Below, in pieces: positions 1 through 45,263 of a stretch of 64,000 nt of DNA. The position numbers were made by a program, and so were the translations under genes. Location: assembly GCA_034401795.1 (NCBI GenBank), contig CM067372.1, forward strand, positions 39,170,520 through 39,234,519, given 5' to 3'. The notes beneath the pieces were generated by a model that saw only the letters and a list, made by a program, of their open reading frames with translations, was not told where the DNA came from and did not search any database. This stretch comes from Chaetoderma sp. LZ-2023a. Its lineage: Eukaryota > Mollusca > Caudofoveata > Chaetodermatida > Chaetodermatidae. Within the stretch, counting starts at the first letter, position 1; each line of letters opens with the position of its first letter.

Positions 1-6
1 GTATGA

Positions 7-119
7 ATGGACCTTTCTAGTTTATCCATCTATCATATGAGGTCATAATCAACTATGCGATGTGGAGGATGACATCATAATCAGTTACAACATGAATGAC
101 TCGATTTAGTATGGCTTAA
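7..119 (+). mobile_element. Family A foldback element, copy A1, left part
   Basis: The left end of a family A element begins at TGGACCTTTC and carries the family's TCATATGA, GTCATAATCAACT and CATGAATGAC segments. It stops exactly at a TTAA where a second element is inserted. The rest of the copy resumes at 2025. No coding capacity is seen, so it would be a non-autonomous element. Confidence 0.8.
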
Positions 120-2020
120 AGGTCATATTTGGAGAAATCCCTTTTATGTACAATTTTGCAAGTATTTAAGGCATTATTGTATAGTAATTAATAACAAACC
201 AGCTGTATGTGTCTAACATTCACCAAATAGCTAATATTACGCTGCGAAGTCGGCGTATGATCGAATACACAAAATTATGTGATGACTTACCTCCCTTGAT
301 TTTGAGCTCTTCAGCGTCAGTAATGACGTAATAGTGGAACAAGCTATTATACCGTAACGTTGAATACATACAGCTTCGTTCAACTTCAACAGGAAATAAG
401 TACAGTTTGGTTGCATTTTCCCGATCAGGCAAAAATAAAAATAGCTTTTTCAGGTCTTATGCCAATACAAATAATAGAAAGTTATATGTTGATTGATTTT
501 AACCCTAGATAAACAACTGACCATCGAGTCTAATGCGCGCTCTTACTTAACATACATAATATAGGCTACATAGCGGAATGACAGTTTTTGACACACGTAA
601 GTCAGCTAGATCTTTCTTATCTGTCTAAAACAAAAATTGTATGAGAACTCAAGGAATTTTCTTTAATTCTGATATTCTTGCTGTGGCTATGTAGGCTACA
701 TGGTTTAGGCCTAGCGGGTGGGTGTGTAGTTAGAATCGCACAAAAACGGAAACAGCTACGAAAAACCAATGCGGCAGATTTTTCTCTGTTTTATGTTTCC
801 AGACATGTTTGAGAACGCGATTACTTTAATGGCGATTTTGGCTCGATAGAAATGTGCATGAACAAAATTAGTCTGTAAATGGCAAGATAATTTAATGTAC
901 AAGTGTGTGAGTTTTTAAAGCTTAGCATATACTCATCATTTTTGAGACCAACTGTTTGTAGGTTTTATCAGAAACCCTTCTGGTTTTACCTAACATGCAT
1001 AGGCCTGATTACAGTTGAATATGCGAAGAAAAATAATCAATATTACATGACCATAGCAATGGTTGGATGGAGGGGTGGGGTGCCTGGTGGTTGGGGGGGG
1101 GGGAGGTGTAGAGGGTGAGGTGCAAGTTAGGGAATCGACGGGCCTGCATATTTTCATGTTGATGCAAAGCATATTATTTTGAGAAATTACCACCAGGCTT
1201 ATTGAAAATTACCACTAGGTGATAAAACAAGCATTCTGTGTGATGGAAGCACATTAATAGTAGCAGATGAACGAATTCATAGGAAGACTGACATATCGGT
1301 TATCGATCGTCTCTCTTTCAATTCATGCGGACGTCAATGAAAGCTTATAGTAAACAAACAATATTTTTTTTAATATGGCAATTTAGTTAATCTTACCCAT
1401 CGGTTATAAATTATTATTGTCACGTCTTTTGCGCATCTTCACTCATATATGTGCTTTTTCAGTGTATACACGACAATTGTACACACTCAGGGCCAGCATT
1501 TGTCTCTAGTATGTAAACCTACAAATTACTCCAGTAAAAGCGTGGGAGAGTGAGTGTCGTTATGCATAAATTTATACGTTAGCTACATTACATTCAAAGA
1601 AATGGTAGATATATACCCAGAATTTACCTCCTTGCCCACATACATATAGGTTACGCACGCATGTGTAGGCCTATGTTTAGAATGACAGGAAACATAAGTG
1701 GCAATGTGTAGGCCCGACCACAGGTATTTTTAGCATAATTTTTGCAACTGAATGCAGTGTTATTTGCTTGTTCAAGTAGCTTAATCACGTAGCCTATGAG
1801 AAGTCCACCTGTATTAGCTTTGCTTAGCGGTTGTTCCACTATGACGTCACAGCTGCTTGGAATTCAAGGGAGGTAATTCATGACACAATATTCTAAAGCT
1901 ATGTACTTTATCGGCAATAAATATAAAAATATGCCATGTATTAGCAAATTAATAACAGCTATATGATTTGGAAGGACTGGATATATTATAATGTCTTAAA
2001 ATACACTCCATATATGACCT
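120..2020. mobile_element. TTAA-flanked 1.9-kb element with long inverted repeats
   Basis: The element starts AGGTCATATTTGG and ends CCATATATGACCT. It is flanked by TTAA at 116-119 and 2021-2024. Inverted homology runs about 250 bp inward: TTACCTCCCTTG and ATAGTGGAACAA on the left (around 290 and 340) are mirrored by GGGAGGTAA (about 1868) and the complement near 1830. TTAA duplication points to piggyBac-type transposition (family knowledge). No transposase frame is visible: the interior (about 380-1780) has only short frames and a G-rich run near 1090-1100. I infer a non-autonomous derivative. It sits inside a family A copy. Confidence 0.85.
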
Positions 2021-2024
2021 TTAA

Positions 2025-2411
2025 TTGTCTGATACGTTGTATGAATTGTATGTCTTTGGTATTTAATAACCATTCTGTTGGATATTTTGAAACTAATTTG
2101 ACTTGTCTCAGCAACAGCACCCAGTCAAATTAGTTTCAAAATAGTCAACAGTTTACCTGTACAGTTTTCTTGAAATTGATAGTCAAAATTGAGGTTCAGT
2201 GATCGATCGATCTCAACACAGGCGAACTGTCAGTGGAGCTTAACTAGGGTTTGATATTTTAAAACTAATTTGACTATGAACATCTCTCAGTCAAATAAGT
2301 TTCAATATATTCAAAAGCTTGAAATTGAGATTCTGAGAATTCAGGGTTTCACAAGTTAAAATTGATTCCACCATAAGTATAAAATGGGCGGAGCTTAGTT
2401 AGAAATGGATC
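2025..2411 (+). mobile_element. Family A foldback element, copy A1, right part
   Basis: This continues the copy from position 119: GAATTGTATGTCTTTG, then a shortened palindromic core (GATATTTTGAAACTAATTTG ... CAAATTAGTTTC), GAAATTGATAGTC, GATCGATCGAT and GTGGAGCTTA. A second partial core follows at about 2253-2312, so the copy appears rearranged internally. The end, GAAATGGATCCCTC, differs from the usual GGAAAGGTCCA and resembles the 16.79-kb copy. Confidence 0.75.
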
Positions 2412-2589
2412 CCTCCATCAATCGTTTTATCTATGTTAGCCAACAATCTGCAAAATTTAATATAAGGATGCATAGAGCATTGACGCTTATGATAAGACAG
2501 TTGCCATTCTTTAAAATGAATTGCAAATGACACTGTATGAAATGTCATCATGAAAACTAAGATTTTTGGCTCACCTGTAAGATTTTTGG

Positions 2590-4556: not shown

Positions 4557-4895
4557 TGAACAATCTGTTTAGCAAACCATAGTTTCCTATATTCTAGGAT
4601 TGCTTAATCCTACTGGAAACAAACTTTAATATATGGTTGCCTATACAATAAGGAGACAGTAATATGATTGTGAGATCACTAGGTCAAAGGTCAAGGTGAT
4701 TCCGACCTTGCTATTTGACATGTACTTTTCCAATGTTACGCTTTTGTGTTTAGCAAAACATTTTCATTTATATTTCAGGATTGGTTAATCCTATTGGAAC
4801 TAAGCTTGGATACATGATTACCTATAATGTTAGAAAGCAGAATGATGACATTACGGTCACAAGGTCAAAGGTCAAGGTTTCTGTGACAGAGGAGA
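4557..4895 (+). repeat. K-family modular repeat, two modules
   Basis: Two related modules of about 170 bp occur here (near 4570-4735 and 4745-4895). Both contain TTTAGCAAA, GGATTG.TTAATCCTA, TGGAA.C.AA and AGGTCAAAGGTCAAGGT. The layout matches the modules at 55.2-56.0 kb, so they probably belong to one dispersed family. It adjoins the right edge of the 33-bp array. No open frame is supported. Confidence 0.6.
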
Positions 4896-5184
4896 CATGC
4901 GAGCCATTTAATTGTGGCATTCATGTTGCCTGAAATATGAATGACTCATACAATGCCATTTATAATAAAACTGTGAATGGAATGTAAGCCGATGATATAG
5001 CACACACGCACGCATGCACATATGCATGCACACACGACTGTCGCAAGCACGCATTTATCTTCTATTACCTGAATGAACTGTGTACAAACAGATATAGTCT
5101 GGCTGGACATGTCTATTTTTAGAACATATGATTAATGATTTCTAATCACTTATATCTTATATTAGAACATAACTGCTTTTTTAC
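4896..5184. other. Unassigned spacer with CA/TG-rich patch
   Basis: Apart from an alternating ACACACGCACGCATGCAC patch at about 5000-5035, I see no structure here. Confidence 0.5.
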
Positions 5185-6049: not shown

Positions 6050-6630
6050 CAGAAACAACTCTACATGGTTCCAAAACAGAAACCTATTAGTTAGTAAGAA
6101 ATGTTCTGTTGAATATCTTTGAACATAATTCACCTTTCCAGTTTATCCATCAATCATATGACATCATAATCAACAAAGTGAAGTGTAGGCCGACTATGTA
6201 GGCCGACGCCATAATCCTGATGTCATGAATGATTCCAAATAGTCCGTCTTTAACGCTTAATAGTCTGACATGGTGTACGAATTGTATGTCTACTGTTTAA
6301 TAAATATGCTGTTGAATATTTTGAAACTAATTTGACTGGGCGCTGTTGCTGCCATAGTCGAATTAGTTTCAAAATATTCAACAGGTTACCTGCATAGTTT
6401 TATGAAAATTGATAGCCAGGGAGTTCAAAGATCGATGGATCCGAACACGAGTATGGTGTGGGTGGAGCTTAGCTAGAGGTGGGCGGGCGCATAGCTAAAA
6501 CTGGAAATGTTCATTGGATTGGAAGCCATTGCTGCTTTAGGCAGAAATGTCTTCCAATCCAACACTCAACAGTACATTTTATTTTGTTTTGGAAACAAGT
6601 TATTTTATTTCTGAGCTGTACTGTATGTCT
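6050..6630 (+). mobile_element. Family C foldback element, copy C1 (split by A3)
   Basis: Left part to 6130: CCAAAACAGAAACC, TTAGTTAGTAAGAAATGTTC, GAACATAATT. Right part from 6513: GGATTGGAAGCCATTGCTGC, a loop, GTCTTCCAATCCAA, CAGTACATTTTATTTTG, GGAAACAAG and TTTCTGAGCTGTACTG. The 39.55-kb copy reads straight through the break as GAACATAATTGGATTGGAAG, so the middle is a later insertion. Confidence 0.8.
6131..6512 (+). mobile_element. Family A foldback element, copy A3, nested in C1
   Basis: Left end CACCTTTCCAGTTTATCC, right end CTGGAAATGTTC, flanked by ATT at 6128-6130 and 6513-6515. It contains the GTCCGTCTTTAACGCTTAAT segment, a shortened core (second copy of the loop arm lost), GTGGAGCTTAGCTAG and GGGCGGGCGCATAGC. 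A GTAGGCCGAC duplication lies at about 6186-6209. Confidence 0.85.
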
Positions 6631-7009: not shown

Positions 7010-8530
7010 ATCGATCTCCTCACACCCCATGCTACCCCATCCAGGTGGCTGTCCGTCTGTGTGTCAATTGCTTCACTATTTGTGGATGAATTTATCTAAA
7101 ACATGGTTAAGATGGAGTTGATTGGATGCCAAATAGCCATACCACCACTTAAAAAGGTTCTCAGTATGTGATCCAATGGTGAAAGATATTGCTTTGGTGC
7201 TAGGTTTTGTCATTTATGGAATTATTGACTTCTTACTAGCTTTCATGACCATATACTGATCACATACATCAAGGGGTATAACTCTTTGTAGCCCCACCCA
7301 AATATAGTGAGAGTCGAGGAATATTGTAATGTTGGCTGCGTGATCTTGATATCACTAACAGAGAGCCACTTGCGTATCATCAAGAAAATCTGCTATTCAT
7401 AAATTGTTGGAATTATTGGCTCTTCTAGATCTGTCTGTCTGTCTGTCTGTCTGTGTATCATCTGTCAACAATTGTGGCACATTTTGCCATTTGTTGATGG
7501 ATTAAAAGCAAATTTGGCGTCTATGTTCTTTTAGGCAATATCTATGGGTCCTCTGGAGATGGAGTGGCCACACCGACAAATAGCAGAGTTATGGCCCTTG
7601 CCATATTTTCAAACTACTTAACCTATGGGGAAAATACATTTGTGGCATATTTTGGCATTTATCGAAGGATTAAAACCAGATTTAGAAGATATGCTCCTTG
7701 CAGCAATATCTATGGGGTTTCTAAAGATGGAGAGGCCACGCCCACAAATAGCAGTATTATGGCCCTTGCTATATTTTCAAAGTATTGAAGCCTATTTGGA
7801 AAATACGTTTGTGGTACGTTTTATCCTTTATAAAGTGATTAAAACCAAATTTTGCCAGAGGTGTGCCTTTAGGCAATATCTATTTAAGTGCCCATGCCGT
7901 TAAACAAGGGCCACAACTCTGGTTCATTAAGGCCTTTTTAAGTATTGAAGCCTGTAGAGAAAATACGTTTGTGGCACATTTCGTCATTTATTGATGGATT
8001 AAAACTAGATTTGGTAGATATATTCATTTAGACAACATCTATTGAAGATATGAATATGAAGTTGCCACACCCTTAAACAAGGGCCATAACTCTGGTTCAT
8101 TGAGGCATTTTTAAGTATTGAGCCCTACAGGGAAAATACATGTCTTCACCAATGCTGATAGGTTAAAAGCAAATTTAGTAGATATGTTCTAAAGTCAAAT
8201 ATCTATTTGAACTATGAATATAAATAGTCTGCACCTTTGAATAATGGCCATAACTCTGGTTCATTAAGTCTTCAACTATTGAACCCTATGGTGAAAATGT
8301 GTTTGATCGTCAATTGTTGATTAAAACCAAATTTAGCAAATATGTTTCTTCTGTCAAATATCTATATGCGCTATGAATATGACGTGACAACTTGAAATAA
8401 GGGACATAACTCTGGCTCTTTAAGGTGTCTTTAGGTATTGAACACTATGGGGAAAGTTATCTGTGTCACGTTTCGTAAATTGTTCATGGATTAAAACAAG
8501 ATTTATCAGAAATGTTCATTTCGTACGCTA
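7010..8530 (+). repeat. M-family modular dispersed repeat
   Basis: A run of degenerate modules, about 160-165 bp each, repeats GGCATATTTTGGCATTTAT, GGATTAAAACCAGATTTAG, GATATGTTC, AATATCTAT, AAGGGCCATAACTCTGGTTC and AAGTATTGAAGCC. A (CTGT)n patch sits at 7433-7455. Phrases such as GGATTAAAACCAAATTT are repeated four or more times with drift. The open frames at about 7564-7903 fall inside modules and are not conserved between them, so this is not a gene. The family resembles mollusc-type dispersed repeats known to me only by motif. Confidence 0.75.
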
Positions 8531-9581: not shown

Positions 9582-9585
9582 TTAA

Positions 9586-9738
9586 CCCTTTCACCGATGA
9601 ATTCCCCATACATCATTTTCAAGGCAAACAACCATATAGAAAAACTGTTGAATTAAGTCAAATTAATTTTAAAATGTTAAACGGAATATGTTTTATGTGG
9701 TAAAATATTTACTTTTCAGGGGTTTGTCAGTGAAAGGG
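9586..9738. mobile_element. Family E foldback element
   Basis: Flanked by TTAA (9582-9585, 9739-9742). Ends CCCTTTCACCGATGAAT and GTTTGTCAGTGAAAGGG. The centre keeps GTTGAATTAAGTCAAATTAA, a decayed half of the core shared with family A. Confidence 0.75.
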
Positions 9739-9755
9739 TTAACGGAGGTATCCCT

Positions 9756-10880: not shown

Positions 10881-10920
10881 TATGTATGTGTCAAATTGAC
10901 ATAAACACTTTCAGCATTAA

Positions 10921-11068
10921 CCCTTTAACGCACAAATCCCTGAAAAAGTAAATTCTTTATGACATAAATCTTATTCTGTTGAATATTTTGAAATTAATTT
11001 AACTGGAAGCCATTTTTCTATATAGTTGCCTTGAAGATGAGTATATGCAGAATTTATCAGCGAAAGGG
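10921..11068. mobile_element. Family E foldback element
   Basis: TTAA at 10917-10920 and 11069-11072. Ends CCCTTTAACGCACAAAT and TTTATCAGCGAAAGGG. The centre has CTGTTGAATATTTTGAAATT and ACTGGAAGCC, one arm of the shared core. The second arm is missing. Confidence 0.8.
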
Positions 11069-11072
11069 TTAA

Positions 11073-12736: not shown

Positions 12737-12993
12737 GTGAATGAATCAACTCACTTTGTCTACTTTGTGATTTTCTGATTATGCCAAACAAAAGGTTATC
12801 AACCATATTGATCGCATGTCTGTGTCTAGAGTTTGTACCCATTTCAGACTTGGTCTCCGTAAAACTGTGCATCTCGCGGGCTACGTCTGAGCTCTGTTCA
12901 GTATTCTAGTCTGAGCTCTGGTCAGTATTTTAAGGAAAATTTGACTGAGCATTCTCGGTAACAAGGACTTGCATTCAGATTTCTGTTAGAATA
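12737..12993. other. Unassigned spacer
   Basis: It contains a short duplication, GTCTGAGCTCTG(T/G)TCAGTATT, at about 12885-12930, and nothing else recognisable. Confidence 0.4.
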
Positions 12994-21779: not shown

Positions 21780-21985
21780 ACCAAATCTAAATACAGATCA
21801 AGGGAGGTAATCAAGACTGTTTTAATGCTTCATGAGTAGTCTCCCCTGATAATTTATTATTTTTAGGTACCTGAAAATTAATTGATAGGCAATAAACTGA
21901 TTTAGAAATTTCAATATGCGTGTTGTCATCCGCAAGAGTTACAAATTAATTATTAATATTTGTCACATTCATAAAAATAATTTCG
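21780..21985 (+). repeat. G-family repeat, fuller copy
   Basis: Hairpin TCAAGGGAGGTAA ... AGTAGTCTCCCCTGA at 21798-21860, followed by CAATATGCGTGTTGTCATC and AATTATTAATATTTGTCAC. It is homologous along about 200 bp to 22535-22770. Confidence 0.6.
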
Positions 21986-45061: not shown

Positions 45062-45065
45062 TTAA

Positions 45066-45259
45066 CCCTTTAACTAGGAAATGTCCATTCGCAGACCAAG
45101 AGAAGACTATTTTTGAAAATTTATAACTGGACTGACTGGTTCGATAACTGAGACAATCATTCCAGTGATAAGTTTTCAAAAATAATCTCTTGGTCTACAA
45201 ATCAACATTTTCTATGAAAAAATTTAAATTTTTTTGGAATAAATTTGAGTGTTAAAGGG
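45066..45259. mobile_element. Family B foldback element, second of a chain
   Basis: TTAA 45062-45065 and 45260-45263, shared on both sides. CCCTTTAACTAGGAAATGTC, core AACTGGACTGACTGGTTCG / GAGACAATCATTCCAGTG, end GAGTGTTAAAGGG. Confidence 0.87.
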
Positions 45260-45263
45260 TTAA

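Follow-up and report, generated by a model that had tools for sequence, protein, structure and literature searches.

A very probable Kolobok-type nonautonomous transposon inserted at a TTAA site within a repeat of the Chaetoderma genome

Introduction

The Kolobok superfamily of DNA transposons is defined by a TTAA target in combination with 5'-RR and YY-3' termini, according to PMC9587614; the same paper states a C/DxxH motif for Kolobok and four other superfamilies. Elements of its Kol0 type encode a second protein, KolX, which is reported to resemble the C-terminus of P2X7, and a few piggyBac families are also described as encoding a protein like the C-terminus of KolX (PMC9587614). Another group, KolobokP, is reported from 7 animal phyla (PMC9587614). 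For piggyBac, the hallmark is a CC[C/T]T terminal motif (PMC2872659).

Here, we analyse a TTAA-flanked insertion in the genome of Chaetoderma sp. LZ-2023a and the family it belongs to. The family resembles the Kol0 lineage (Kolobok-1_XT type; PMC9587614) in its TTAA target, its AG...CT termini and the presence of a larger relative (locus L049) that carries KolX and transposase pieces on opposite strands. It differs in that the family itself is noncoding, while L049 is without recovered catalytic parts or a detected THAP domain. The nonautonomous Kolobok element T2-MITE of Xenopus shares with it the TTAA target, an AGG tip, the lack of a transposase and a multi-copy state, but the terminal motif given for T2-MITE in PMC6004289 is AGGRR, whereas we find AGGTC, and the 22 two-ended copies fetched here span 2.1-3.1 kb, unlike short MITEs. 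KolobokP elements (PMC9587614) agree in superfamily, TTAA target and RR...YY termini; they have long terminal direct repeats, while a comparison of the two ends of the window copy yielded no such repeat, and we therefore rejected an identity with KolobokP. Finally, piggyBac MITEs such as the coral CMITEs (PMC2872659) also use TTAA and lack a transposase, but their tips read CC[C/T]T where ours read AGG.

Results

Insertion site and boundaries

The window, i.e., the whole stretch of 64,000 nucleotides that was analysed (C14:39170520-39234519), belongs to a host assembly of 2.44 Gb. Its features of interest are collected in Table 1.

Table 1. Features of the inserted element and of the interrupted repeat (window coordinates)
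Feature	Position	Strand	Basis or remark
Interrupted family A repeat, left part	6..115	+	Matches at 12993, 37986, 48214, 6132 and others
Left target-site copy, TTAA	116..119		Family A paralogues; left-end TTAA at 31/36 genome places
Very probable nonautonomous Kolobok-type element, internally deleted family copy	120..2020	+	Genome copies; family majority length 2,846 bp
Left terminal inverted repeat AGGTCATATTTGGAG, RR terminus	120..134	+	14/15 identical to right tip
Left subterminal conserved block (ATG..TTACCTCCCTT ... ATAGTGGAAC)	271..342	+	Shuffles; six-row alignment
Junction of an internal deletion (about 0.85 kb, retained by most aligned family copies)	1806..1808		Family alignment
Right subterminal conserved block, inverted	1831..1892	-	Shuffles; six-row alignment
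Right terminal inverted repeat AGGTCATATATGGAG (read inward), YY terminus on the + strand	2006..2020	-	Tip comparison
Right target-site copy, TTAA	2021..2024		Family A paralogues and genome copies
Interrupted family A repeat, right part	2025..2430	+	Contains the hairpin 2075-2151; right limit estimated by eye

The segment between the two TTAA copies comprises 1,901 bp and splits a family A repeat. Both the flanks and the interruption had been proposed in a preliminary description of the window and are borne out by the paralogues: none of the 10 family A copies that could be aligned over the junction contains the insert, and five of them (near 13.1, 48.1, 38.1, 6.26 and 33.8 kb) show a single intact TTAA there, with differing sequence at that spot in the remaining five. 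The undisturbed text that had been quoted for the empty site starts at 6254 and not at 6255. Among the 20,242 TTAA pairs of the window that are 100-6000 bp apart, a tip identity of 14/15 is reached by two only (116/2021 and 58116/58325).

The family A hairpin arm GTTGAATATTTTGAAACTAATTTGACT is found 45 times in the 64 kb (22 in one orientation and 23 in the other, with 5 mismatches allowed), e.g., at 2077, 5813, 6311, 13167, 38158, 47951 and 62804. It also occurs inside piggyBac-like elements at 9656 and 10978, such that the palindrome seems to be common to different repeats.

The window also harbours short TTAA-flanked elements whose tips read CCCTTT, i.e., a piggyBac-type signature, at 9582-9742, 10917-11072 and 45062-45263 as well as other TTAACCCT ends; this set targets TTAA separately from the 1.9-kb element. 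The heptamer TTAAAGG is enriched in the window (24 vs. 8.6 expected), in part because several piggyBac-type tips read CCCTTTAA.

Copies across the genome

A genome search with the element yielded 94 matches at 40 places, which are those scored among 1,169 candidates at first look. We fetched 36 places, best first, so that the sample leans towards well-preserved copies. At all 36, the ends are those of the window copy, while the 15 bases outside differ, one local duplication excepted. The left end is a TTAA at 31 of the 36 places. Statistics on both ends are based on 22 fetched copies plus the window copy (23 in total), since at the other 14 places one of the ends was absent, cut short or could not be located. 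TTAA is found on both sides in 17/22 fetched two-ended copies (18/23 including the window copy); in the other five, it is off by one base at an end, and in one of these at both. That is, copies with both ends were collected as the preliminary description had suggested, and its refuting case (copies that always run past the ends or are never flanked by TTAA) did not arise: the copies stop at the same bases and are TTAA-flanked.

The 19-base tip TTAAAGGTCATATNTGGAG has 544 exact matches in the genome (263 on one strand, 281 on the other), compared to 0 for the reversed control. The majority length of the family is 2,846 bp. Copies are on average about 92% identical in pairwise comparison, and the window copy (93%) is an ordinary member, whose deletion ends 215 bp short of its right end. 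None of the 23 copies contains a stop-to-stop open reading frame (ORF) of more than 143 aa. Six-frame Pfam searches of the window copy, and of the 0.86-kb segment absent from it (taken from L018), detected no transposase remnant, the best match being DUF2647 with E 0.12. The element had been described as apparently lacking a transposase, which agrees with both results.

Given these copies, the segment is confirmed as a mobile element with neat bounds. The target and boundaries, said beforehand to be definable from the sequence, hold since the genome copies share their end points; the case thus rests on the genome copies and not on the score of a long inverted similarity.

A few places need separate mention. 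In L027 (1001-3798, minus-strand count), the left part of one copy is present twice in tandem with an identical 15-bp flank, which suggests a local duplication and not a second insertion. L046, L047 and L048 were considered as autonomous partners and rejected, as they are further copies of the noncoding family that contain nested insertions. By eye, the translations of the nested frames are a pogo-like transposase (L046), a Tc1-like transposase (L047) and a reverse transcriptase; such inserts amount to layered transposon activity. Outside the host, a single IMG/VR match to the tip (L001) covers 22 bases in otherwise unrelated DNA of 31% GC and was thus taken as chance, and prokaryote genome contigs contain 0 matches to 18 bases taken from the inner block. 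Among the papers listed by a literature text search with the letters of the tip and the inner block, none is about the element, judged at title and abstract level; PMC10747672, which this search turned up, deals with plant satellite repeats.

Architecture of the ends

Foldback elements are defined by long near-identical inverted ends that can form a hairpin. We find strong likeness of the two ends to be confined to the 15-bp tip and one inner block (271-342 / 1831-1892). The latter aligns with a score of 51, compared to a maximum of 24 in 1000 shuffles. The stretch between tip and inner block (135-270 vs. 1893-2005) is at shuffle level (reached by 82/1000), and beyond the inner block there is weak similarity (reached by 10/1000). 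Under a harsher control, 3 of 240 arbitrary arm pairs from elsewhere in the repeat-rich window score at least 53 (65, 79 and 106), which is the value of the 300-bp ends considered here; long inverted similarity alone is therefore no proof of an element. Of the 250-bp inverted ends originally proposed, the likeness of the tip and the inner block stands, but the repeat is not continuous.

When the left and right ends of the window copy, L018 and L049 are aligned in six rows, three blocks emerge, i.e., the tip, ATG..TTA(C/T)CTCCCTT and ATAGTRGAAC. Conservation of the inner block extends to both family ends and to the 9.84-kb KolX-bearing L049, while much of the intervening sequence has drifted. 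The ends are distinct from each other: alignment to L049 scores higher for like ends (left-left 217/269 aligned bases, score 236; right-right 205/266, score 224) than for opposite ends (scores 110 and 119). Foldback is thus a poor description.

The motif TTACCTCCCTTGA is present at 287, 1864, 21798, 22547 and 34468, i.e., five times in the window (one with a mismatch) vs. 0.05 expected, with three sites outside the element. Those at 21798 and 22547 were dismissed, as no matching tip is nearby (21.6-23.05 kb).

The termini read 5'-AGG...CCT-3' and thus follow the RR...YY pattern of Kolobok. All 23 copies start with AG on the left, and 20/23 end with CT on the right. The other three right ends were inspected by eye: L015 has CT after offset correction, L036 has CC (still YY) and L026 has AT, where the right ends of L015 and L026 were placed by extrapolation and are one or two bases off.

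A coding relative with a KolX-like frame

Among 100 of the 544 tips, six facing pairs are unusually far apart. The analysis covered four of them, namely L049 and the noncoding copies L046, L047 and L048, but not the C1 pairs of 9.5 and 13.8 kb. L049 spans 9,842 bp between TTAA sites, and 20 bases (TTAA included) are identical at both ends. Its ORF 7693-8058(-) matches the Pfam family P2RX7_C (E 5e-7, 30.3 bits vs. a cut-off of 23.5; profile positions 138-191 of 192); P2X7 entries in the PDB are matched weakly (E 0.013 at best). KolX, with its P2X7-type ballast domain, is thereby seen as a partial P2RX7_C match in L049, at 13 convergent loci (see below) and as a relic of its 5' exon in 6/23 copies. 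KolX alone is no proof of Kolobok because of the few piggyBac families with a similar protein.

The ORF 4572-4958(+) of L049 represents a transposase piece without any Pfam match. It has 69 genome matches, itself included, roughly ten of them at 84-93% identity and some in long single frames, with L050 and L051 open over 674 and 644 aa, respectively. The region 4677-4928(+) of L049 matches these two ORFs with E 9e-16. A further region, 6302-6481(+), matches weakly (E 0.002, one query only), with order and strand as in L050/L051. Transposase and KolX pieces are on opposite strands in L049, the only element in which tips, transposase piece and KolX were seen complete together. No catalytic D/D/E parts were recovered from L049, which may itself be defective, and THAP, suspected in L049 by eye, had no Pfam match in seven L049 pieces or the two ORFs L050 and L051.

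Neither L050 nor L051 matches any Pfam family above cut-off; the 674-aa homologue shows weak similarity to Mutator/MULE (E 0.0099 and 0.041, below cut-off). By eye, we find the motifs D, TDRH, DIWH/DVWH and SLEAFH in both, which appear to be in keeping with the C/DxxH motif of Kolobok. With regard to a transposase with D..DxxH..E and H2CH, the window family has none, and L049 has an H2CH-like piece as well as the weak C-terminal piece.

P2RX7_C is located within 10 kb at 13 of 64 transposase-piece places, in convergent orientation in all 13 cases, where about 0.02 are expected if placed at random. Of the 69 transposase matches, 64 entered this count, as did 37 of the 44 for P2RX7_C; second matches at listed places were omitted. 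L049 is not among the 13 loci, its own P2RX7_C piece being absent from that match list. The convergent transposase-KolX loci, e.g., C14:124766773-124772872, provide a ready set of autonomous-type Kol0 candidates. The tip was seen at 0/3 other transposase places, for which end positions were guessed; at two, the fetched stretches may have missed the ends. At the C14 place (L052), about 600 bp past the equivalent of L049 position 466 have no match to the first 465 bases of L049; judged by eye, this stretch is perhaps an intron absent from L049.

Alternative explanations

The preliminary description had seen a foldback family mobilised by piggyBac. Several observations fit this idea, namely the TTAA target, the abundance of piggyBac transposases in the genome (at least 119 DDE_Tnp_1_7 matches, with 116 of 427 candidates scored) and the piggyBac families with a protein like the KolX C-terminus (PMC9587614), as the P2RX7_C match of L049 covers exactly that part. 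But the termini are AGG...CCT and not the CC[C/T]T given in PMC2872659, and there is no single continuous inverted repeat at the ends. Ends that do fit piggyBac, i.e., TTAACCCT, form a separate set in the window (22 vs. 2.1 expected). Furthermore, a full-length relative with the same ends and a piggyBac transposase was anticipated, while in the one large relative we find P2RX7_C and transposase pieces whose longer homologues are without the piggyBac domain: DDE_Tnp_1_7 is absent from the seven L049 pieces and, at E up to 1, from L050/L051. Among the matches listed (116 of 427 candidates scored), none is near L049, the nearest on C1 being at 175.1 Mb. We thus consider mobilisation by piggyBac very unlikely, while the remainder of the earlier interpretation, a DNA transposon without transposase in a TTAA inside family A, stands.

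An element of Tc1/mariner type with a TA target, a preference for TTAA and ends AAGG...CCTT seems to us just as improbable. Because TTAA is palindromic, a single site fits a duplication of TA (parsed as TA + AAGG...CCTT) equally well, so that the window alone cannot separate the two targets and genome copies are required. In 17/22 fetched copies, T and A are the outer neighbours of TA at both ends, as a TTAA target predicts, and L049 contains P2RX7_C. Tc1-like and pogo-like genes do exist inside two long copies (L047 and L046), but they are located between matching halves of the noncoding family, like nested inserts. A chance pair of TTAA sites or a segmental rearrangement, i.e., no mobile element at all, is hardly conceivable. 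Although the window has 482 TTAA sites and many inverted repeats, with arbitrary arm pairs that match equally well, this explanation is already refuted by the 36 fetched places with common ends and different neighbours as well as by the tip counts (544 vs. 0).

Discussion

The element is very probably a nonautonomous DNA transposon of the Kolobok superfamily, of the KolX-bearing Kol0 type, and the family A repeat, as part of the same reading, the older sequence into which it landed. The TTAA target (17/22 fetched copies and the window copy, empty paralogous sites), the RR...YY termini, KolX and the motifs compared by eye point to the name Kolobok, whereas of the piggyBac features TTAA is shared and the CC[C/T]T tips are absent. 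This kind of element is already known; the family would be a further member of the Kolobok group, ordinary in kind.

By analogy with the superfamily, a Kolobok transposase produced from another genomic locus would act in trans. It would recognise the 15-bp tips, probably together with the subterminal block that lies about 150-225 bp in from the end, excise the element and paste it into a TTAA, which is duplicated in this cut-and-paste reaction. In the present case, insertion would have taken place in the older family A repeat, with a copy that is now without about 0.85 kb of the family interior. A more specific, tentative and rather unlikely proposal is that tip and block are two modules needed by the transposase machinery, with the block as a putative subterminal binding site, perhaps for KolX.

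The origin of the noncoding family can be approached via the N-terminal KolX-like ORF of L049 (9416-9646, -), which has decayed tblastn matches in 6/23 noncoding copies (E 2e-7 to 0.001). This relic of the KolX 5' exon adjoins the right end of the family, and a gapped DNA alignment of L049 and L018 spans the right tip through the relic; family ends and KolX therefore belong together. The window copy lacks the relic because its deletion reaches to within 215 bp of the right end. Since noncoding copies carry a KolX relic, the family would descend from a KolX-bearing element, most likely one like L049 that lost its interior.

For the assignment of families, this locus is a correction, in that TTAA by itself is insufficient for piggyBac. 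What would take its place is a Kolobok family of clear bounds, present in one genome as a noncoding branch alongside a KolX-bearing relative. Its conserved subterminal blocks are probable marks of what the transposase reads, and the KolX relic is a record of the origin of the noncoding family.
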